Source of the DNA: Bacillota bacterium
Lineage (GTDB): Bacteria > Bacillota > Sulfobacillia > JACIYH01
Direction: 5' to 3'
Length of the DNA stretch: 64,000 nucleotides
Assembly (NCBI GenBank): GCA_030019365.1
Contig: JASEFA010000008.1
Coordinates: 1-64,000, forward strand
Shown: positions 7,074 through 63,709 of the stretch, piece by piece
Layout: every line of letters starts with the position of its first letter
How positions within the stretch are numbered: position 1 is the stretch's first letter
The notes under the pieces: generated by a model
The model's database searches: none
Seen by the model: only the letters and a program-made list of their open reading frames with translations
What the model was told of the DNA's origin: nothing
Position numbers and translations under genes: made by a program

Positions 7074-8264
7074 CTACGTACCTCCCTCATCCGCCGCCGC
7101 ATGGTCGCGCGGCGTGGCTGCCGGAGCAGCGTCGTGCGGCGGCCCGTCCGCCGCTGAAGGGCCGCGGGCCGGCGGGCCGTGCCGCCCCTCGTCGCCCTCT
7201 GGCCGCACGGCCTCCGGGTCCAAAAGGGCCTGCACTTCTGCCAGCAACTCTTCCACCATGCGCCCCGCCGGCACGGTGCGGATCCTCTCGCCCCTGCGGA
7301 AGAGCACCGCCTTCCCCCGCCCGGCCGCCAGGCCCACATCCGCCTCGCGCGCTTCGCCGGGGCCGTTCACCACGCAGCCCATCACCGCCACCTTGAGGGG
7401 CGCCTCCACCCCGGCCAGGGCCTCCTCCACCCGGGACGCCACCGTCATCAGATCCACCTGGCAGCGCCCGCAGGTGGGGCACGCGATCAGCTCCACCCCC
7501 CGGGCCCGCAACCCGACTGCCCGCAGGATGTGCCAGCCCGCCTGCACCTCGCGCACCGGGTCTGCGTTCAGGGAGACCCGGAGGGTGTCGCCAATTCCAT
7601 CCAGCAGGAGGGCGCCCACGGCCACCGCCGACCGGATGGCTCCTGCCCAGGCCGTGCCCGCCTCCGTCAGGCCCAGATGCAGGGGATAGGGGCAGCGGGA
7701 GGCGACCTGACGGTACGCTTCCACCGTCGTGAGGACGTCCGAGGACTTCAGGGAGAGGACGATGTCGGAAAAGCCCACCGACTCCAGCACGTCGGCCTGG
7801 CGCAGGGCGCTTTCCACCAGGGCGCGCGCCGTGCGCCCGTATGTGCTCTCCAGTTCCTTTGCGAGGGAACCGGCGTTGACCCCTATGCGAATGGGCACTC
7901 CCCGCTCCCGCGCCGCCCGAGCCACTTCTTCAACCTTCCACCGGGAACCGATGTTGCCCGGGTTGATGCGCAGCTTGTCCACGCCCTGGGCGAGGGCCTC
8001 CAGGGCCAGGCGGTAATCGTAGTGGATGTCGGCCACCAGCGGCACGGCCGTCCGGCTCCCGATCTCGCCCAGCACCCGGGCCGCCTCCCCGTCGGGAACG
8101 GCCACCCTCACCAGCTCGCAGCCGGCTGCGTGCAGGCGCATAATCTGGGCCACGGTGGCTTCCACGTCGCGGGTATCCGTCTTGGTCATGGACTGGACCC
8201 GGACCGGGTTGCCCCCGCCCAGGACCAGATTCCCCACCTTCACCGGCCGTGCCGTCCTCACCAT
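7074..8264 (-). CDS. ispG: 4-hydroxy-3-methylbut-2-enyl diphosphate synthase (IspG/GcpE)
   Basis: This is the penultimate enzyme of the MEP isoprenoid pathway, reducing MEcPP to HMBPP with a [4Fe-4S] cluster. The 396-residue protein starts with RPVKVGNLVLGG, followed by the TIM-barrel residues VQSMTKTDTRD and INPGNIG. The cluster ligands are CPTCGRC near residue 268 and the Cys of GCVVNGPGEA near 305. The last 35-40 residues are a Pro/Ala/Gly-rich tail not needed in the family. ATG 8264 has GGGAG upstream and lies just past the rseP stop. Its neighbours dxr and uppS belong to the same lipid pathway. Confidence 0.97.
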   Translation of the reverse strand: MVRTARPVKVGNLVLGGGNPVRVQSMTKTDTRDVEATVAQIMRLHAAGCELVRVAVPDGEAARVLGEIGSRTAVPLVADIHYDYRLALEALAQGVDKLRINPGNIGSRWKVEEVARAARERGVPIRIGVNAGSLAKELESTYGRTARALVESALRQADVLESVGFSDIVLSLKSSDVLTTVEAYRQVASRCPYPLHLGLTEAGTAWAGAIRSAVAVGALLLDGIGDTLRVSLNADPVREVQAGWHILRAVGLRARGVELIACPTCGRCQVDLMTVASRVEEALAGVEAPLKVAVMGCVVNGPGEAREADVGLAAGRGKAVLFRRGERIRTVPAGRMVEELLAEVQALLDPEAVRPEGDEGRHGPPARGPSAADGPPHDAAPAATPRDHAAADEGGT

Positions 8265-8265
8265 C

Positions 8266-9285
8266 TCAGGCTCCCAGTCGGGCCAGATCCATATACGTGA
8301 TCACCAGAAAGAGGAGCATGAGCAGGGCGAAACCCACCAGGTGCACCAGGTTCTCCCGGGCGGGGTCCACGGGCTTGCCCCGCACCACTTCCAGCCCCAG
8401 AAACATGAGCCGGCTGCCGTCCAGGGCCGGGATGGGAACCAGGTTGAAGAGTGCCAGGTTGGCGGAGAGCACGGCGGTGAGGTACATGAGCTCGCGCAGG
8501 CCCATGCGGGCCGCCTGCCCGATGAGCTCGCCGATGCCCACCGGGCCCATCAGCCGGGCCTCTACCTTGCCGGTGATGGCCAGCAGTACCCCCCTGATCA
8601 GGAGAATGGTGACCCGGTAGGTCTCTTTCACGCCGGCCCACAGGGCCCCGGGCAGGGCATCCCGCTCGGCCCGCACCACCGGCGCCAGGCCCACGAATCC
8701 CACCCGCTGGTCGGTGGGGGAGCGCTCGGGGACCACCACCGCCTGTCGCCGGACTCCCCCTCGCTCCACCGTGAAGGCCAGGGGCCGGCCGGGAGAGGCC
8801 TGCACCATGGCCACCACCTGGTCCCAGGAGGTCATTCGCCGCCCGTCCACCTCCAGGATGCGGTCGCCCACCCGCAACCCCGCCCCCGCGGCGGGACCGC
8901 CCGGCAGCACCTGGGCCACCGTGAGGGTGGCCCGCCCGATCCCCAGCACGGCGAAGATGAAGGTGAACAGCGCCACCGCCAGCACCAGGTTCATGAGGGG
9001 ACCGGCGAATATGACGCCCGCGCGGGTGCGCACGGGCTTGCGGGAGAAGCCCTCGGGGTCATCCGCTTCCCCCGCCTCCATGCCGGCAATGCGTACTCCC
9101 GCACCCCACGGGATGACCCGGAGGGCGTAGTAAGTCTCACCCACGCGACGCCGGTAGAGGGCGGGACCGAAGCCGATGGTGAACTCGTGCACCTTGATGC
9201 CCGCCCGCCGGGCCGCCAGGAAATGCCCGGCTTCGTGCACCACTACCAGCAACCCCAGGACCAGAACTGTCACCAGGATGGTCAT
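8266..9285 (-). CDS. rseP: RseP/RasP site-2 membrane zinc protease
   Basis: A 339-residue intramembrane metalloprotease of the S2P family that trims anti-sigma factors and signal peptides. The zinc site HEAGH is at residues 17-21 in the first membrane helix. One PDZ domain lies at about 110-190 (AGLRVGDRILEVDG). The second active-site element is NLVPIPALDGSRL near 285, followed by the last membrane helices. ATG 9285 overlaps the dxr stop (ATGA at 9282-9285). The dxr-rseP-ispG order is common in Bacillota. Confidence 0.95.
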   Translation of the reverse strand: MTILVTVLVLGLLVVVHEAGHFLAARRAGIKVHEFTIGFGPALYRRRVGETYYALRVIPWGAGVRIAGMEAGEADDPEGFSRKPVRTRAGVIFAGPLMNLVLAVALFTFIFAVLGIGRATLTVAQVLPGGPAAGAGLRVGDRILEVDGRRMTSWDQVVAMVQASPGRPLAFTVERGGVRRQAVVVPERSPTDQRVGFVGLAPVVRAERDALPGALWAGVKETYRVTILLIRGVLLAITGKVEARLMGPVGIGELIGQAARMGLRELMYLTAVLSANLALFNLVPIPALDGSRLMFLGLEVVRGKPVDPARENLVHLVGFALLMLLFLVITYMDLARLGA

Positions 9286-10436
9286 CCGCCGTCCTCCCCG
9301 GCCGCCTCGGCCGCCCGCCGGCGGGCCCAGGCGGCCGCCGCCAGGATTTCCTCCAGGGAGCGCGCCGGGCCCGGGACGTGCTCGCTCATAACCCGCTCCA
9401 CCAGGCGGGCAATGCCGGGGAAGGAGATCTCGCCCCGCAGGAAACGTTCTACCGCCACTTCGTCTGCCGCACTCATCACCGCGGGCACAGTCCCCCCCAT
9501 TCTACCCGCCCGGTAGGCGTATTGCAAGCAAGGGAAGTCCTCCACCCGGGGGCGCTCGAAAGTCAGCTCGCGCCCGGCGAGCTCAAGAAGAGAGATGGGC
9601 GGCGAGACCCGCTCGGGGTAAAAGAGGGCGTAAGCGATGGCCAGGCGCATGTCCGCGGAACCGATCTGGGCCAGCACCGACCCGTCCTGCATCTCGAGCA
9701 GGGAATGGACGAGCCCCTGTGGGTGGATGAGCACTTCAATGCGGTCGTAATCCAGCCCGAACAGGTGGTGGGCCTCGATCACCTCCAGCCCCTTGTTCAT
9801 GAGGGTGGCGGAGTCCACCGTGATCTTGGGCCCCATGTTCCACACCGGGTGGCGGAGAGCCTCCCCGGGGGTGACATTCCGCAGGGCCCCGGCGTCCAGG
9901 GCGCGGAAGGGCCCCCCCGAACCAGTGAGGATGATGCGGCGCACGCCGGCCGGATCTTCCCCGCGCAGGCACTGGTGCACCGCCACGTGCTCGCTGTCGA
10001 CGGGCAGGAGCTCCCCGCCCCGAGCGGCCTGCATCACCAGGTGGCCCGCCGCCACCAGGGTTTCCTTGTTGGCGAGAGCCACCCGCTTCCCGGCCTCCAG
10101 GGCGGTGAGGGTGGGCACCAGGCCGGCCAGCCCGGCGCTGGCCACCAGCACGGTGTCCGCTTCCGGCCAGGAGGCCAGCTCCCGCATGCCATCATCGCCG
10201 GCCAGCACCACCGGCCCCGCTACTGCACCCAGCAGCTCCCTTGCCCGCCGGGCGGCCCCGGGATCGGCCAGGGCCACCACGCGGGGCCGGAACTCCCGCG
10301 CCTGCTCCGCCAGCACATCGATGCGACCGCCCGCAGCCAGCCCCACCACCTGCAGCCTCTCCGGATGCCGGCGCGCCACGTCCAGGGCCTGGCGGCCAAT
10401 GGAACCCGTGCTCCCCAGGATCACCAGGTGCCTCAC
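9282..10436 (-). CDS. dxr: 1-deoxy-D-xylulose 5-phosphate reductoisomerase
   Basis: The first committed MEP-pathway enzyme, converting DXP to MEP with NADPH. The 384-residue protein has the NADPH loop GSTGSIGRQALD at 8-19, NKETLV, the metal and substrate region PVDSEHVA, and SATLMNKGLEVIEA. The length is normal. The chosen start is GTG 10436, which overlaps the upstream stop (GTGA at 10433-10436). The open frame continues upstream without homology to the family. Confidence 0.96.
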   Translation of the reverse strand: MRHLVILGSTGSIGRQALDVARRHPERLQVVGLAAGGRIDVLAEQAREFRPRVVALADPGAARRARELLGAVAGPVVLAGDDGMRELASWPEADTVLVASAGLAGLVPTLTALEAGKRVALANKETLVAAGHLVMQAARGGELLPVDSEHVAVHQCLRGEDPAGVRRIILTGSGGPFRALDAGALRNVTPGEALRHPVWNMGPKITVDSATLMNKGLEVIEAHHLFGLDYDRIEVLIHPQGLVHSLLEMQDGSVLAQIGSADMRLAIAYALFYPERVSPPISLLELAGRELTFERPRVEDFPCLQYAYRAGRMGGTVPAVMSAADEVAVERFLRGEISFPGIARLVERVMSEHVPGPARSLEEILAAAAWARRRAAEAAGEDGG

Positions 10437-11485
10437 GCCCGCCCACCACCCCCGGGGCGGCCGCCCCCGGGTCCGCCGGGCGGCTCGCCGAAGGTGAGGA
10501 TACCGGCCTGCCTCATGGCAGAGAGCAGCATCACCACGAGCGGCCCCACCGCCAGCCCCAGGATGCCCAGCAGGCGGGCGCCCACGTACATGGAGACCAG
10601 GGCGGCCAGCGGATGAATGCCCAGCCTTTCCCCGATCACCCGGGGCTGAGCCACCTGCCTTACCACGGAAATGGCCAGGTATAGCAGGCCCAACCCCACC
10701 CCCAACCCCACCTTGCCCCAGATGAAGTTGTACAGCATCCACGGCACGAACAGCAGCCCGGGTCCCAGCACGGGCAGGATGTCAAGCAGTCCCGAGGCGA
10801 GCCCCAGCAGCAGGGCATAGGGTATCCCCAGGGCCGCGAGGCCGGCTATGGTGATGACGGTGGTGAGGACGATCAGAAGGAACTGGGCGAAGGCGAACTC
10901 CCCCACCGAGCGCATCAGCCGCCCGGCCAGGTTGGCCGCGTGTTCCCGCCATCCTCCGGGAAGCAGGCCGAGGAAGAAGGCCCCTATCGCTCCCAGGTCC
11001 CGGCTTATGAAGTAGGAGGCGATGGCCGCCACCAGGGTGATCAGGCCCACCTCGGGCAGGCCGGCCACGGCCAGGAGGGCTCCGGACAGCACCCGCCCGA
11101 GAAAGGCGTACAGCCTGGCGAGCTGCCCGTATATCTCCTCGGTGACCGTGGGAGGCAACGACGCCATGAACTGGCCCGCCCGCGCCGTGAGATCGTCCAC
11201 CACCTGGCGGGCGGTCTGGTAATACGTGGGCAGGGCTTCCACCAGCTTGGTGATCTCCACCACCAGGGTGGAAACCGCCCAGGTGACCAGGGCGAAGAAC
11301 AGCCCCAGCACCAGGGCGAGGGCCACCAGCACGGCCACGGACCGGGCCACGCGCAACCTCTGCAGGCCCCGCACCACGGGTTCCACCGCCAGGGCCAGCA
11401 GCAACCCCAGGACGAAGGGCCACAGGTAGGGCAGCAAGTAGCGCACGAAAACGTATGCCCCCGCCAGGACTCCGCCGGCCAGCAA
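10433..11485 (-). CDS. AI-2E/YtvI-family membrane permease
   Basis: A polytopic membrane protein of about 350 residues with the AI-2E/PerM/YtvI layout: two N-terminal helices, an amphipathic region (about 70-130), a further helical block and the conserved LLDILPVLGPGLLFVPW segment. YtvI members occur in spore formers, but the substrate is unknown. The Gly/Pro-rich tail is poorly conserved. The start is uncertain. TTG 11485 is the first standard codon but has no good ribosome site and trims the first helix. ATC 11509, preceded by AAGGA, would give a better N-terminus. It sits between cdsA and dxr, where most Bacillota have no gene. Confidence 0.8.
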   Translation of the reverse strand: MLAGGVLAGAYVFVRYLLPYLWPFVLGLLLALAVEPVVRGLQRLRVARSVAVLVALALVLGLFFALVTWAVSTLVVEITKLVEALPTYYQTARQVVDDLTARAGQFMASLPPTVTEEIYGQLARLYAFLGRVLSGALLAVAGLPEVGLITLVAAIASYFISRDLGAIGAFFLGLLPGGWREHAANLAGRLMRSVGEFAFAQFLLIVLTTVITIAGLAALGIPYALLLGLASGLLDILPVLGPGLLFVPWMLYNFIWGKVGLGVGLGLLYLAISVVRQVAQPRVIGERLGIHPLAALVSMYVGARLLGILGLAVGPLVVMLLSAMRQAGILTFGEPPGGPGGGRPGGGGRA

Positions 11486-11548
11486 GCACGAAGCTGCAAA
11501 GGGACTGATCGCCGTCCTTAACTCACATCCCCCCCATCCGTCCTCAAG

Positions 11549-12328
11549 TCACATCCCCCCCAGCATCTTCCACCAGTACAGGACGGGAGCGGCAAAGGCG
11601 AGGCTGTCGAACCGGTCCAGCACCCCGCCGTGCCCGGGCACCAGGCGGCCGGAGTCCTTGCGACCGGCGGCCCGCTTCAGGGCCGACTCCGCCAGATCGC
11701 CCACCATTCCCGCCACAGCCGCCCCCACACCCAGGGCCACCCCCACGGCCGCCCCCCGGTGCAGGAGCGGCCCGGCGGCCACCGCCCCGGCCACCGCCGC
11801 CGCCAGCACTCCCGCCAGCGCTCCTTCCCGGGACTTCCCCGGGCTCAGCCGCGGCACCAGGCGGTGGCGTCCCCGGGCCAGGCCCACGAAGTAGGCGGCT
11901 ATGTCGGCCGCCCAGACCGCAGCCAGCAGAAAGAGGCTCCACCCCAGGCCCTGCGCTCCCTGGCGCAGCAATACAAGGTGGCCCAGGCCCAGGCCGGGAT
12001 ACAGCACGCCCAGCAGCATGGCCGGAGCCCGCACTCCCCCCGGGTAAAGGGCGGCATCCAGGATCATCACCGCCAGCAGTACGGCGGTGGCGCCCAGCAG
12101 TAGCGGGAGTGGCACCAGGCCTCCCAGCAGCAAGACCAGGCACCCGGCCAGCACCGCCGCCACCCCCGCCGGCAGCCGGCGGCTCGCCTCTGCCATGGCC
12201 ACCGCCTCCGCGGCAGCCGCACCGGCCAGGAGGGCCACCGCCACCGCCCACACCCTGCCCCCATACCACAGGCAGGCCAGCAAGGGCGGGGCCCCGAGGA
12301 CGACGGTGAGGACCCGGGTTCTGAGCAC
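11549..12328 (-). CDS. cdsA: Phosphatidate cytidylyltransferase
   Basis: A membrane enzyme making CDP-diacylglycerol from CTP and phosphatidic acid. The 259-residue protein is mostly membrane helices. It carries the CTP-transferase signature SALKRAAGRKDSGRLVPGHG, followed by GVLDRFDS, near the C-terminus. GTG 12328 is preferred: it is preceded by a G-rich ribosome site and gives the usual length. An ATG at 12352 would overlap uppS by 20 bases. The next gene begins in the region just after its stop at 11549. Confidence 0.93.
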   Translation of the reverse strand: MLRTRVLTVVLGAPPLLACLWYGGRVWAVAVALLAGAAAAEAVAMAEASRRLPAGVAAVLAGCLVLLLGGLVPLPLLLGATAVLLAVMILDAALYPGGVRAPAMLLGVLYPGLGLGHLVLLRQGAQGLGWSLFLLAAVWAADIAAYFVGLARGRHRLVPRLSPGKSREGALAGVLAAAVAGAVAAGPLLHRGAAVGVALGVGAAVAGMVGDLAESALKRAAGRKDSGRLVPGHGGVLDRFDSLAFAAPVLYWWKMLGGM

Positions 12329-12332
12329 GCCC

Positions 12333-13118
12333 CTATCTCCCCTCGGCAGCATCCAGCCCGCCGAACCGGCGGCGCCGGCGCTGGTAGTCGGCCACGGCCT
12401 CCGCCAGATGGACCGGCCGGAAGTCGGGCCACAGCACCGGGGTGAACCAGAACTCAGCGTAGGCAGCCTGCCAGAGCAGGAAGTTGGATATGCGCAGCTC
12501 TCCGGAAGGGCGGATGAGCAGGTCGGGGTCCGGCAGTCCGGCCGTGTCCAGGTACGACGCGAACTTATCCTCATTCAGCTCCGCTTCCGTCTTCCCCTCA
12601 CGGATATCCCGGCCGAAGCGCTGGCAGGCATCGGTGATCTCGCGCCGGCCGCCATAGTTGAGGGCCACCACCAGCTGCAGCCTGTCTCCCGCCGCCGTGC
12701 GCTCCCTCACCCGCCCCAGGGCCTCCCGCACCCGGGCGGGCAGGTCCTCGGGATGGCCTATGATCCGCACCCGGACCCCATTCCTGGCCAGGGTGTCCAG
12801 CTCTCGATCAACGTAATCCGCCAGGAGGTCCATCAGCCCCTGCACCTCCTCGGGCGGCCGCTTCCAGTTCTCGGTAGAGAATGCGTACAGGGTGAGGACC
12901 TCGATGCCCAGTTCGGCGCACGCCTCCACCACCTGGCGGACGGACTCCAGCCCCGCCCGGTGCCCGGCCAGGCGCGGCAGCCCCCGCTGCCGGGCCCAGC
13001 GGCCGTTGCCATCCATGATGATGGCCACATGCCGGGGCACGAGTCCCCGCCGCAACTGGGCCTTGCGCTGCTCCCAGTCGCTATTTCCCCTCTTTCTTCT
13101 CCCGGACGTATTCTTCAT
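12333..13118 (-). CDS. uppS: Undecaprenyl diphosphate synthase
   Basis: A cis-prenyltransferase that builds the C55 lipid carrier for wall synthesis. The 261-residue protein has the substrate loop IIMDGNGRWA near residue 35, HRAGLESV, LYAFSTENWKRP and the C-terminal RPSGELRISNFLLWQ. ATG 13118 lies 38 bases inside the preceding small gene and has no strong ribosome site. Starts further in would remove residues that other members keep, so coupling to the upstream gene is likely. Confidence 0.96.
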   Translation of the reverse strand: MKNTSGRRKRGNSDWEQRKAQLRRGLVPRHVAIIMDGNGRWARQRGLPRLAGHRAGLESVRQVVEACAELGIEVLTLYAFSTENWKRPPEEVQGLMDLLADYVDRELDTLARNGVRVRIIGHPEDLPARVREALGRVRERTAAGDRLQLVVALNYGGRREITDACQRFGRDIREGKTEAELNEDKFASYLDTAGLPDPDLLIRPSGELRISNFLLWQAAYAEFWFTPVLWPDFRPVHLAEAVADYQRRRRRFGGLDAAEGR

Positions 13119-58470: not shown

Positions 58471-61155
58471 CTATCGCCGCGCCAGGCGCACGCTCTCCAG
58501 ACGAGCGGATTCCTCCGCCAGGAAGATGGCCTTCACCTCCAGGTACCTGCCGGGAGGAAGATCCGCCGGCTCCGGAGCGGCTGACGTCCAGTGAAGCCCA
58601 TCGGAGGAGGCGCGGAAGCTGAGCGTCACCCCCGTCCCCCTCACCTCCGCCAGGCGCCAGCGGGTGTTCTCTTCCCCTTCCAGGCGCCAGATCACCTCCG
58701 GACGGGGCACCACCTCCAGCACTCCACCCCCGTCCGCCACCAGGTAGATCAGGCCGTCCACCACCACTGCCGTCCCGCAGGCGGGCGCGGGCAGGGGGCG
58801 GGGCATCTCCCGCACGGCGGAGCCGCCCGGCTCCACCTCCAGGATGCGGGCGGAAAGCCCTTCCCGGCCGACCCCGCCCATCACGTAGAGGCGATCCTGC
58901 CACAGGACCGCCGCCGCCCTCTCCAGGGGCAGGGGGAGATGGGCCACCTGCCGCAGGGAACCATCCACCGGGCAGAACAGCAGGACTTCGTCCAGCAGCC
59001 CTGCCGGACTGCGGCCTCCCACCAGCCATATCCCCTCCGGTGCGCTTACCGCCACCGCCTGCCCGCGGGGGGACGGGAGCCTCACCGGCAGTTCCTCCCA
59101 CGAGAAGGCGACCGGATCGAACCGCAGGATGCGGTCGCTGGAGCCGGCGTCCGTGCACCCGCCCAGGACGTACACCGCGTCGCCCCAGGCCGCCGCTGCC
59201 GAACCTTCCATGGCCCGGGGCAGGGATGCCACCGCCCGGGCGGTCCCGCTGTCCAGATCCACCATGGCTATGGTGCTCAGCCTGCCTCCCACCAACGCGT
59301 GGCGGTTACGCCCGCCAAAGGTGAAAATGCGATTTCCCACCCGGGCGCAGGGGGCGTTCATGATCCGTCCGGGCAGCGTGAATCCCAGCACCCGTTCCTC
59401 CCGGTCGCGCAGGGTCAGCCGGCGAATCTGCTCCGTGGCCCAGATGCCGGGGGCCCCGCCCACCACGTAGATGTCGCCGCCCCTCCCCGCCACCACCCCC
59501 GCGTAGGTGAGGGGAGCACCCAGGGTGAGTACCGGCCGCGGGCTGCCCGGCTCCCGGCGCAACCGCAGCACCCTGGCCAGCTCGACCGCAGGGCTGCTCG
59601 ATCCCCCGCAGAAATACGCTTCACCACCCCGGACGACGCCCGCCGCGCCCCAGCACCCGGGGGCGAAGGAGAGGGCCGGAGTGAGCCGATCCACGCCCCG
59701 TTCGGGGGTGTATGACCACAGGGTGTTCAGGGCAGCGGGATTCCCCGGGTTCCCCGCCGCCCCGCCCAGCAGGTACACCACCCCCTCCAGGACAGCCGCA
59801 GCGGATCGAGCCGCGCCTGCGGGCAGGCGATGCCTGGTATCCTCCACCACCCCGCTCCGGGGTGAGTACCTCAGGATGCGGTCCGACCAGCCCCGGGGCG
59901 TCTGGCCCCCGAACAGGTAGATATACTCGCCCAGCGCCACCGCCGGGGCCCCCGCCAGGGCCGTGGGGAGGGTGGTGGGGAGCTGGTCGATGGCCTCCGC
60001 GCCGGGGTCGAACGCGAAGATGGCCGGGGAGGGCGCGCCTCCCAGATAGCCGCCGAACACGTAGACCTTACCCGCGTGAGCACACGCGGTGGCTCCCGTG
60101 AGGGGGGCGGGAAAACTGCAGTTCAGCCTGCGCAGCGGTTTCCCCACTCCCTCGTACGCCCAGACCTCCTGCCCGGCCTCCCCGGGGCCGCCCCCCAGGA
60201 GATAGGCCCTATCGCCCACGGTAGCCACCGTCGCCTCCGGAGCCTCGTAGGGCAGGCGGGTTGGCAGGAGCTGCCACTCTTCGTCGGGGCCAGGCTGGTA
60301 CAGGATGCCGTCGGCATTGCCCCGGCCTCCCAGCAGGTAGGCTCCCCCCGCCACCAGGGCGGCGCCCGCTCCCGACACCGGCACGGGCAGGGAGCAGCCC
60401 GGCCCCAGGGTGGGACCGTGCTCGGGGACGAGGGCACCTTCCCGCTCCCGGACACCCGCGCAGGAGAAGACCGCATCGGGCGCCGCCACCCCGACCCCCA
60501 GCTGAACGGTCTCCCCTCCTCCGGTCCCGGAGGACTCTTCCCCGCCCGCCGGAGGTCGCTGTCCCTCCCCGGGCACCTCCCCTTCCCCGGGTGACTGTCC
60601 CTCCCCGGGCGGCTGCCCATCGTCTGACGATTCCTCTCCCTCACGGCCCTGCCCGGGAGGGGTCTCCCTGGGGAATCCCGTTCCCAGGGGCGCGCCCCCC
60701 GGTTCCTCGGGCAGGAACACGATGGTGTCCGCCGCCCATGGCGGCGCCGCCGTGGTGGCAAACACCCGGCCCAGGCGGTTGATGCCGTAGTACAGCGGGA
60801 GCGGTTCACCGCCCAGGCCCGCCTGGACCGCGTCGCCGGCCGGCAGGGAGCGCAGGCCGGCCGCAAAGGGTCGCCCATCGCCCCCGGTCGCCCCTAGGTC
60901 GAGGAGAGAGGCCAGGGGCCCACCCTGCGGAAGGGACCCGCCGCGGGGGGCCTGGTCGGCCACGGGATATCTCCCCCAGAGAGCATAGAAAAGGTCGCAC
61001 GCCGACTGCAGCCCCCTCATGCTGCCGCGCCAGGCCTGTACGCGGGCCCGCGGGAACATACCCGGCATGGCCCCGGCCACCACCGCGGCCAGCAGCGCCA
61101 CGATGGTCACCGCCGCCAGCACCTCCACCAGAGAGCTGCCCCGGTTATTCTTCAT
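58471..61155 (-). CDS. Giant Kelch-repeat pseudopilin
   Basis: An 894-residue protein that joins a pilin to a beta-propeller. Residues 1-30 are a prepilin start (KNNRG, cut after Gly6, then SSLVEVLAAVTIVALLAAVV with Glu at mature position 5). Residues 30 to about 155 resemble the major pilin two genes upstream (compare LPAGDAV..YYGINRLGRVF with its MPTGDAV..YWGLVRSGLVF). A Gly/Glu/Pro linker follows (about 160-215). From about 265 to 800 there are twelve Kelch-type units, each with a hydrophobic strand and Gly-Gly (for example AYLLGG, VYVFGG, IYVVGG), enough for one or two propellers. The last 95 residues form a beta-rich domain. ATG 61155 overlaps the ATPase gene. It is probably a tip or minor pilin that binds something outside the cell. 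Confidence 0.85.
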   Translation of the reverse strand: MKNNRGSSLVEVLAAVTIVALLAAVVAGAMPGMFPRARVQAWRGSMRGLQSACDLFYALWGRYPVADQAPRGGSLPQGGPLASLLDLGATGGDGRPFAAGLRSLPAGDAVQAGLGGEPLPLYYGINRLGRVFATTAAPPWAADTIVFLPEEPGGAPLGTGFPRETPPGQGREGEESSDDGQPPGEGQSPGEGEVPGEGQRPPAGGEESSGTGGGETVQLGVGVAAPDAVFSCAGVREREGALVPEHGPTLGPGCSLPVPVSGAGAALVAGGAYLLGGRGNADGILYQPGPDEEWQLLPTRLPYEAPEATVATVGDRAYLLGGGPGEAGQEVWAYEGVGKPLRRLNCSFPAPLTGATACAHAGKVYVFGGYLGGAPSPAIFAFDPGAEAIDQLPTTLPTALAGAPAVALGEYIYLFGGQTPRGWSDRILRYSPRSGVVEDTRHRLPAGAARSAAAVLEGVVYLLGGAAGNPGNPAALNTLWSYTPERGVDRLTPALSFAPGCWGAAGVVRGGEAYFCGGSSSPAVELARVLRLRREPGSPRPVLTLGAPLTYAGVVAGRGGDIYVVGGAPGIWATEQIRRLTLRDREERVLGFTLPGRIMNAPCARVGNRIFTFGGRNRHALVGGRLSTIAMVDLDSGTARAVASLPRAMEGSAAAAWGDAVYVLGGCTDAGSSDRILRFDPVAFSWEELPVRLPSPRGQAVAVSAPEGIWLVGGRSPAGLLDEVLLFCPVDGSLRQVAHLPLPLERAAAVLWQDRLYVMGGVGREGLSARILEVEPGGSAVREMPRPLPAPACGTAVVVDGLIYLVADGGGVLEVVPRPEVIWRLEGEENTRWRLAEVRGTGVTLSFRASSDGLHWTSAAPEPADLPPGRYLEVKAIFLAEESARLESVRLARR

Positions 61156-62149
61156 CACGACGCAGGCCCCCCTTGCGCTCGTCCACCGGGAACTGCCGCA
61201 TCCCGGGCAAACCCCGTACCAGCCGGGCCAGGGCACGGCGGCCCTGCCAGCCCCGGCTTCCGCACTCCGGACAACCCGCCCCCTGGCAGTCCCCGCACGG
61301 TCTCCTCACCAGCCTCTGCTCCAGGATGCCACAGAGGGCTACGGTCAGATGGCGCCGGTCCGCCCCCATTTCCACCAGGCGCTCGACGGCGCCCGCGGCA
61401 CCCCCGGCGTGTAACGTGCAGAGCACCAGGTGCCCTCCCAGGGCGCACCTCACGGCGGCCCGGGTGCTCTCCTCGTCCCGCACCTCGCCTACAGCCAGCA
61501 CCCGGGGGTCGTGCCGCAGCGCCGCCCTCATGGCCGCCAGGAACCCGAACCCCGCCCGCGGCTGCACCTGCACCTGGGTGACCCCGGGAATGGGCTGCTC
61601 CACCGGGTCCTCGACGGAAATGGTCGACTTGCCGCTTTCGGCCACCTCCTTCAGACAGGCGTATAGGGTGGTGGTCTTGCCGGAACTGGCCGGCCCGGTG
61701 ATGGCCAGCAGGCCGCTACCCTCGAGCAAAGAGCGCACCTCTGCCACCACTTCGGGTTCCAGTCCCAGGTCCTCCAGCCCGGAGGCAGGCAGCCCGCCCT
61801 GAAGGCGGAGCGTGACCCTTTCCCCCTGCACGCAGGGCAGCAGGGCCACCCGCCAGGTATGCCCGTTGACCGGCAGGACACCGTCCTGGGGGCGCAGGCC
61901 GTCCAGCAGGTCCAGCCCGGCCAGCAGCTTGAGCACGCCCACCAGCCGCGGCCAGTCCCCCCCGCCCAGCGGGCAAACCTCCCTCAGTTCGCCGTCCACC
62001 CGATACCGTACCCGCACCACCCCCTCGCCCGGCTCCAGGTGGACGTCCGACGCCCCCTGCCCGGCGGCATCCTCCAGCAGGCGGTACAGGGTGTGCTCCA
62101 TTCCCTTTTCGCTTTCGACCTTCGCGTCCCGCGACCGGTGAAGCCACAT
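61145..62149 (-). CDS. Short PilB/GspE-type assembly ATPase
   Basis: A 334-residue secretion ATPase. It has ASDVHLEPGEG, Walker A GPASSGKTTT (152-160), SVEDPVEQ, the Walker B region AVGEVRDEES and the His box CTLHAGGAAGAVERL. The four-Cys zinc element CGDCQGAGCPEC near residue 285 marks it as the extension (PilB/GspE/ComGA) class, not PilT. It lacks the usual N-terminal 100-150 residues that dock to the inner platform. ATG 62149 has AGGGGG upstream. It lies between the platform gene and the Kelch pilin. Confidence 0.9.
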   Translation of the reverse strand: MWLHRSRDAKVESEKGMEHTLYRLLEDAAGQGASDVHLEPGEGVVRVRYRVDGELREVCPLGGGDWPRLVGVLKLLAGLDLLDGLRPQDGVLPVNGHTWRVALLPCVQGERVTLRLQGGLPASGLEDLGLEPEVVAEVRSLLEGSGLLAITGPASSGKTTTLYACLKEVAESGKSTISVEDPVEQPIPGVTQVQVQPRAGFGFLAAMRAALRHDPRVLAVGEVRDEESTRAAVRCALGGHLVLCTLHAGGAAGAVERLVEMGADRRHLTVALCGILEQRLVRRPCGDCQGAGCPECGSRGWQGRRALARLVRGLPGMRQFPVDERKGGLRRDEE

Positions 62150-62174: not shown

Positions 62175-63170
62175 TCAGGGCAGGTGAGCCAGGGCGAGGT
62201 ACAGCGGCTGCACCACGGCCAGTGCCACCAGGGCCACCACGCTGGCGGCCAGCAGGGTGAGGACCGGCTCCAGCAGGGACAGGGCGAGCCTCTCTAACTG
62301 GCGTTCCCGGGAGCGACAGTAAGCAGCCAGGTCGTGGCAAACCGTGGCTGCCTCCCCGGCGGCTTCCGCCCCCGCCAGCTGGGCGGCCAGGGCGGGGGGC
62401 AGCCCACCCGAACGGGCGATGGCTTCCAGAGCCGGGGCCCCCGCCCGCACATCCCGCGCCGCCCGCTCCAGCCTCCGCCGCAGGTAGCCGTTTCCGCAAC
62501 CTGCTGCCAGGCACCCCACTGTTTCCCTGGTCAGCCCTCCTGCCCTGCTCAGCCGGCTCAGCGAATCCAGCAGCCGGGCCCGCTCCCGCCACATCAGGAC
62601 GCGCCCCATCCCGGGGAGAGCCAGAGCCGCCCGGTCGCCCACCGGGCCGAGCTTCCCCGCCACGGACAGGGTCATACAGGCCGCGGCAAGGGCCGCCACC
62701 CCCAGCCCGGCCTGCCACCGGGGGGCGGCCCACAGGAGCAAGCGGGTGGCGAGAGGCAGCCCGGTCAGCACACCCACCAGTTGCAGCGGGGGCAACAGCG
62801 CCGGCAGGAGGAACAGGCCCACCAGCGTGGCCGCCGCTCCGCCCAGCCCGACCACCAGCAGCGGGTACACCAGGCCCGCGCGCTGCTCACCCGTGCGGGT
62901 GGCGCGGCCCAGGCCTTCCTCCGCCATCTCCCCGAGCATGACAGCCCCCCGCCCGGCCCGGACTGCCTGCTCCAACCGGGCCGCTTCCCACGGCGAGGAC
63001 ACGCCGCACGCCCGCAGTGCCTCGGCCAGGGTGTGGCCCTGCCCCAGCCGCTTCCGCAACCTCCCCGCCATCTTTCCCGGCAACCGCTCCAGCACCGGGC
63101 CTGCGGGCAGGCCGGCCCGCGCCGCCACCTCGACTTGCCGGCACCAGGCCCACACCTCCGCCTGCCTCAT
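62175..63170 (-). CDS. PilC/GspF-type platform membrane protein
   Basis: A 331-residue polytopic protein with two GspF-like halves, each ending in membrane helices (about 115-170 and 295-330). The second half has LSRLSRAGGLTRETVGCLA and the charged loop before the last helix, as in PilC/GspF/ComGB. It is the inner-membrane base for pilin assembly. ATG 63170 overlaps the pilin stop (ATGA). Confidence 0.85.
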   Translation of the reverse strand: MRQAEVWAWCRQVEVAARAGLPAGPVLERLPGKMAGRLRKRLGQGHTLAEALRACGVSSPWEAARLEQAVRAGRGAVMLGEMAEEGLGRATRTGEQRAGLVYPLLVVGLGGAAATLVGLFLLPALLPPLQLVGVLTGLPLATRLLLWAAPRWQAGLGVAALAAACMTLSVAGKLGPVGDRAALALPGMGRVLMWRERARLLDSLSRLSRAGGLTRETVGCLAAGCGNGYLRRRLERAARDVRAGAPALEAIARSGGLPPALAAQLAGAEAAGEAATVCHDLAAYCRSRERQLERLALSLLEPVLTLLAASVVALVALAVVQPLYLALAHLP

Positions 63171-63709
63171 CGGGACATGATCTCCGCCAGGGATCGCCCC
63201 TCCAGGGCGTCCAGGGTGTGGATGCGGATCGCCCCGTCGGCCCAGGCCCCCTGGTCCGGAGGGACCTGGGTGCAGAAGACCAGGCCGCTCCTCACCAGCC
63301 CCCAGTAGACCCGCCCGCCCAGCGCGGGATCCAGGCCCAGCGCCACGGCGTCGCCGGTGGGCATGAACTGGACGTAATTTCCCAGGAAATGGCGGTCGGG
63401 TTCGCCCGGACAGGCAGCTTCGGGGCGGACTTCCACCGCCGTATGAGGGTCGGGCTGCGATGCCGGCACGTCGCCCGAATAGGTGGGGTAGACGTTGCTG
63501 TCGGAATAGAAGCGATCCACCGCACCCTGCAGGGCGGAGAGGTTGGCGGACAGGGCACTGCGTTTGGCCCGCGCCACGGCGTCGGGCACCGTCTGCACCA
63601 CCACCGTGGCGAGCAGACCCAGGATCACCACCACCGCCATCAGTTCCACCAGCGTGAACCCCGGGGAGGAACCCCGCCAGAAACGACGACATCTCTCCCT
63701 AACGGTCAT
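63167..63709 (-). CDS. Type IV prepilin / GspG-like major pseudopilin
   Basis: A 180-residue prepilin. The leader MTVRERCRRFWRGSSPG is cut before Phe-Thr-Leu-Val-Glu (SPG/FTLVEL), followed by a hydrophobic helix (MAVVVILGLLATVVV) and a globular part with SALQGAVDRFYSDSNVYPTY, like GspG. It heads the four-gene cluster and shares its middle region with the Kelch pseudopilin. ATG 63709 has GGGGGG 7 bases upstream; a start at 63748 would only lengthen the leader. Confidence 0.9.
   Translation of the reverse strand: MTVRERCRRFWRGSSPGFTLVELMAVVVILGLLATVVVQTVPDAVARAKRSALSANLSALQGAVDRFYSDSNVYPTYSGDVPASQPDPHTAVEVRPEAACPGEPDRHFLGNYVQFMPTGDAVALGLDPALGGRVYWGLVRSGLVFCTQVPPDQGAWADGAIRIHTLDALEGRSLAEIMSR

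Follow-up and report, generated by a model that had tools for sequence, protein, structure and literature searches.

The last gene of a four-gene pilus operon in the window (the whole 64,000-nucleotide stretch of Bacillota DNA analysed here) encodes a type IV pilin that carries a large head of Kelch repeats in the same polypeptide. As far as its sequence tells, the predicted product is a modular type IV pilin, combining a leader, a homologous pilin module, a fused non-pilus domain and a location in a pilus-gene operon. We consider it probable that its leader is cleaved, that it enters the filament made of the operon's pilin with its head most likely at or near the tip, and that propellers formed by the Kelch repeats bind a ligand.

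The gene (58471..61155, minus strand) starts at ATG 61155, which is preceded by a purine-rich stretch, and shares its first 11 bases with the 3' end of the PilB gene. It encodes 894 aa followed by a stop, with no internal stops across the 894 residues. The N-terminus bears a prepilin leader peptide, MKNNRG (residues 1-6; 61138..61155, minus), evident in the sequence and detected by PF07963 (N_methyl), which scores 23.8 bits on residues 1-26 against a cut-off of 21.2. The predicted cut site, MKNNRG/SSLVE, lies before SSLVE and places Gly at -1 and Glu at +5. The pilin module (residues 1-157; 60685..61155, minus) is defined by PF07963, by homology to pilins and by a pilin-family profile (A4), which matches the module with E 3.6e-56 and of which the Kelch pilin is a member by construction. 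The module matches the first pilin of the operon at 33% over 137 residues (E 1.5e-10), bearing out the resemblance proposed in a preliminary description of this DNA, and pilins in other families of the class at 36-41%.

A Gly/Glu/Pro-rich linker of ~90 residues (about residues 158-248; 60412..60684, minus), fast-evolving, length-variable and always in frame, connects the pilin module to a head of ~640 residues. Several Kelch families match the head far above their cut-offs (PF24681, E 6.7e-36; PF13964, E 6.9e-28; PF01344, E 1.2e-27). Laid out by eye, the repeats form twelve units from residue ~250 to ~822-825, on average about 48 residues apart, with a double-glycine motif that is degenerate in the twelfth unit (VADGGG). 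From this layout and the predicted structures, units 1-6 are assigned to propeller 1 (about residues 255-551; 59503..60393, minus) and units 7-12 to propeller 2 (about residues 552-822; 58690..59502, minus). The preliminary description gave the same coordinates and the same count of twelve units, both of which are correct on the minus strand, and its proposal that pilin and Kelch repeats share one frame holds. Its "beta-rich end" is a short segment of ~72 residues (823-894; 58474..58689, minus) that has no Pfam match and is modelled with low confidence.

The operon is tightly packed, in the order pilin, PilC/GspF, PilB/GspE, Kelch pilin. The first gene (63167..63709, minus; 180 aa from ATG 63709) encodes a GspG-like pilin, presumed to be the major one, with PF07963 above cut-off and a match to TIGR01710 (E 1.8e-12) below cut-off. 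Its stop overlaps the start of the gene for the PilC/GspF-type platform protein (62175..63170, minus; 331 aa from ATG 63170; PF00482 in two stretches, E 1.6e-23), followed by that for the PilB/GspE-type assembly ATPase (61145..62149, minus; 334 aa; PF00437, E 1.4e-71), a short form lacking the N-terminal domain. Two congeneric species, G002 (70% identity) and G001 (61-62%), also have full-length, in-frame fusions, and both conserve Gly-1 and Glu+5 of the prepilin motif. The G002 copy corresponds to the public record JACIYH010000058.1 from a Bacillota MAG, the only one returned by a contig scan for Kelch pilin orthologues. G001 keeps the whole run trmD, lepB, yraN, pilin, PilC, PilB, Kelch pilin, ylqF, rnhB, and G002 has the same run and neighbours split over two contigs. 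Housekeeping genes in conserved order thus flank the pilus operon, with yraN on one side and ylqF-rnhB on the other (L034 44-9829 in G001; L027).

The four-gene operon itself has no gene for a prepilin peptidase, PilM/N/O or PilT. Such genes lie elsewhere in the genome: a single A24 prepilin peptidase was detected, on contig C16; one PilM-like gene was found, on C9; and two PilT-family retraction ATPases score above cut-off, one in the window (C8:3937-4845, plus strand), far from the Kelch operon, and the other on C9. The pilus machinery is therefore probably shared between loci. Two other type IV filament clusters, C9 5135-14992 (PilM, PilB, PilT and pilins) and C19 339-3745 (PilB and one pilin), are possible donors of shared parts. 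No match to the secretin family PF00263 was found in the genome, which is 97.8% complete, while control genomes were positive; the envelope is probably one without a secretin-bearing outer membrane.

In the pathway that we propose, the leader would be cleaved after Gly6 by the single detected prepilin peptidase, and PilB and PilC from the same operon would drive the pilin module into the filament of the operon's first pilin. The ~640-residue head, held on its flexible linker, would then lie at or near the filament tip, the most likely location because the filament core has no room for a head of this size. The propellers may bind a surface polymer, a glycan or a partner protein. By analogy with PilY1, with the RCC1-headed PilX2 of Saccharibacteria and with the adhesive modular pilin PilB of Streptococcus sanguinis, the Kelch pilin is most likely an adhesin exposed at the tip, a single polypeptide that would fill the role played jointly by PilY1 and minor pilins in diderm pili. 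Insertion at scattered positions along the shaft is possible, since the Kelch pilin retains Glu5, a residue often missing from tip minor pilins such as PilX (PMC7541494).

The lack of PilM/N/O in the operon, with the sole PilM-like gene on another contig, means that the system may borrow parts or form only a short pseudopilus. In an alternative reading, the pilin part would be only a membrane anchor (or build a very short pseudopilus), and the propellers would act as scaffold or receptor on a cell surface that bears no long pilus. Besides the missing PilM/N/O and the absence of a detectable secretin in the genome, such a role would fit the surface display of Kelch propellers that is common in the class, where many stand-alone Kelch proteins start with a signal peptide, a lipoprotein-like segment or a membrane-anchor segment. 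Against it, purifying selection acts on a complete pilin module that extends beyond an anchor helix, and in three species the gene stays linked to those for pilin, PilC and PilB; we regard the anchor reading as unlikely, though worth keeping in view. It is improbable that the operon builds a minimal, cargo-exporting pseudopilus of the T2SS type with the Kelch head as its cargo-binding tip: among NCBIfam models the first pilin and the ATPase score best on GspG and GspE, below cut-offs, but the genome has no secretin match and no linked cargo candidate was found in the four-gene operon. The Kelch pilin itself fails the GspG equivalog model (19.7 bits against a cut-off of 88.85). With this failure and no detectable secretin in the genome, the term "type IV pseudopilin" used in the preliminary description stands as regards "pilin", and "pseudopilin" is not established.

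Structure prediction addresses the Kelch head. A two-row alignment gave a full-length model of low overall confidence (pLDDT 52, pTM 0.42), with very low confidence in the pilin module, which together with the linker is unusable. In this model residues 558-819 match the six-bladed Kelch propeller 7pvp (Z 32.0, rmsd 1.9, 253 aligned) and also the Keap1 and KLHL propellers (about Z 31). Propeller 1 was modelled alone as residues 234-552 (pLDDT 70, pTM 0.77), and residues 270-551 match 7pvp (Z 31.4, rmsd 2.4, 266 aligned); the first blade has low pLDDT, and ending the construct after six units biases it towards a six-bladed outcome. Foldseek on the full model blended the two propellers, and its result was left out. 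Sequence comparison with solved chains returned Kelch propellers only. A pair of six-bladed Kelch propellers is the best reading of these models, in line with the earlier suggestion for the twelve units. The two six-bladed matches, one from the construct cut at the six-unit border, disfavour a single 12-bladed or a 5+7 arrangement. An origin of the two halves by duplication of six blades at once was also considered and set aside, as the blade comparison gives no special six-unit offset.

The head might instead be a pilus-displayed enzyme of the mutarotase or oxidase type, to which partial NanM-like matches point (PF24996, E 5.3e-19; TIGR03548, E 3.6e-14). The scores are at a level typical of generic Kelch repeats and far below cut-off (TIGR03548, 52.6 against 243.2; TIGR03547, 48.1 against 256.4), arguing against identity with the known Kelch mutarotase NanM, and we judge an enzymatic head very unlikely.

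The evolution of the gene bears on whether it encodes one protein at all. Among the three species of the genus, dN/dS is 0.22-0.34 for the pilin module and 0.21-0.31 for the Kelch region, and identity across orthologues falls to only 39-50% in the linker, where all indels preserve the frame. Purifying selection acts on both the pilin and the Kelch parts; the linker alone drifts. A merger of two adjacent genes by a frameshift error in assembly or annotation, for which no support was found, is practically excluded, because both parts are under purifying selection and the full-length fusion recurs in three species from separate assemblies, including JACIYH010000058.1, with linker indels that never break the frame. 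An internal start giving a soluble Kelch protein is ruled out by the three-species fusion and the selection on both parts, and the overlap of the ATG with the PilB gene and the purine-rich stretch before it also speak for the full-length start; the two outcomes named in the preliminary description as evidence for separate proteins, a frameshift or an internal start, were thus looked for and did not appear.

A homologous operon with the same order (pilin, PilC, PilB, second pilin) is present in G040, a member of another family of the class. RCC1 repeats form a propeller family unrelated to Kelch, and it is these that make up the head of the second pilin in G040 (525 aa; L032:3996-5570 in G040:C26, minus; PF00415, E 2.5e-74; PF25390, E 1e-99). 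This RCC1-headed pilin resembles the Kelch pilin in its slot after PilB and in its pilin module of the same family, and differs in its head and in having Gln in place of Glu5, which the Kelch pilin retains. As an RCC1 fusion occupies the same slot of a homologous operon, the slot looks like one for a propeller-headed pilin whose head seems exchangeable between Kelch and RCC1. A tree of the pilin modules neither shows nor rejects a single origin of the second pilins (Kelch, RCC1 and G015; p-AU 0.25).

In a profile search, full-length members of the pilin family were found in few genomes of the class, namely three species of this genus, G040, G015, G052, G109 and G019; elsewhere in a 398-genome phylum sample the matches are partial only and mostly cover the N-terminal helix. 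The homologous pilus operon of G015 (G015:C447, L031) has an unassigned, secreted-looking 414-aa protein after PilB (7362-8603) and a second pilin (L031:11482-11988) whose Pro-rich end is truncated where the contig stops. In the type IV pilus cluster of G019 (G019:C34, L135 about 10151-12388), a third propeller type stands beside pilus genes, unfused: a secreted-looking protein of its own combines a PQQ-type beta-propeller (PF13360, E 4.3e-33) with a PKD domain. No further Kelch pilin was found in the class (154 genomes) or the 398-genome phylum sample, where inspection covered the best-matching loci; the other Kelch proteins there stand alone, and a prepilin leader is absent from those inspected. 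Other genomes of the phylum contain Kelch-repeat frames about 4,500 residues long (L139, L141; G424:C51, G330:C15).

The most interesting part of these results is the propeller-for-propeller difference between homologous operons. A plausible, if still tentative, generalisation is that the class has a minimal pilin-PilC-PilB operon in which one position is reserved for a tip pilin with a propeller head, Kelch and RCC1 having been swapped there, giving an independently arisen, fused counterpart of PilY1 in monoderms. The source of binding specificity is poorly known in pili without PilY1, above all in bacteria without a secretin, and the presence of a Kelch pilin in one operon and of its RCC1 counterpart at the equivalent place in a related one suggests that evolution has settled on beta-propellers as tip heads more than once. 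In addition, the fusion gives a measure of the head size that one pilin may bear, and offers a compact one-gene system for testing propeller-headed tips.

Modular pilins as such are already known, as is a pilin with an RCC1 propeller (PMC8179133; PMC12206443); the Kelch version appears to be new. No Kelch-headed pilin was found in the searched literature, consistent with the preliminary description, a result that falls short of proving absence as the search did not extend to the architecture data set of PMC8179133; the other side of that novelty claim is narrowed by PilX2, a propeller-headed pilin already published (PMC12206443). Modular pilins are widespread, with 264 architectures catalogued, and the main text of that catalogue does not name Kelch (PMC8179133). 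In Streptococcus sanguinis, PilB is an adhesive modular pilin with a grafted vWA module and PilC carries a lectin (PMC8179133). These share with the Kelch pilin a leader and pilin module, a bulky non-pilus domain attached via a linker, linkage to pilus genes and an origin in Bacillota, but their heads are vWA and lectin rather than two predicted Kelch propellers.

PilX2, a minor pilin of Nanosynbacter lyticus TM7x (Saccharibacteria), carries an RCC1 propeller of seven blades; T4P-2 function requires PilX2 but none of the other minor pilins, and PilX2 is the proposed T4P-2 adhesin (PMC12206443). It is like the Kelch pilin in having a C-terminal beta-propeller on a pilin and in the proposed adhesin role, and differs in having one seven-bladed RCC1 propeller and no predicted PilD signal, whereas the Kelch pilin has a clear leader and, as modelled, two six-bladed propellers. 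In the PilC/PilY1 system, the beta-propeller protein PilY1 forms a pilus-tip complex with minor pilins (PMC7541494). The Kelch pilin would share with it a beta-propeller for adhesion at the pilus tip, and no PilY1-type family is among its Pfam matches at E up to 1. PilC/PilY1 is not a pilin and has a type I signal peptide and a PilY1 domain, whereas the Kelch pilin is itself a pilin with a prepilin leader.
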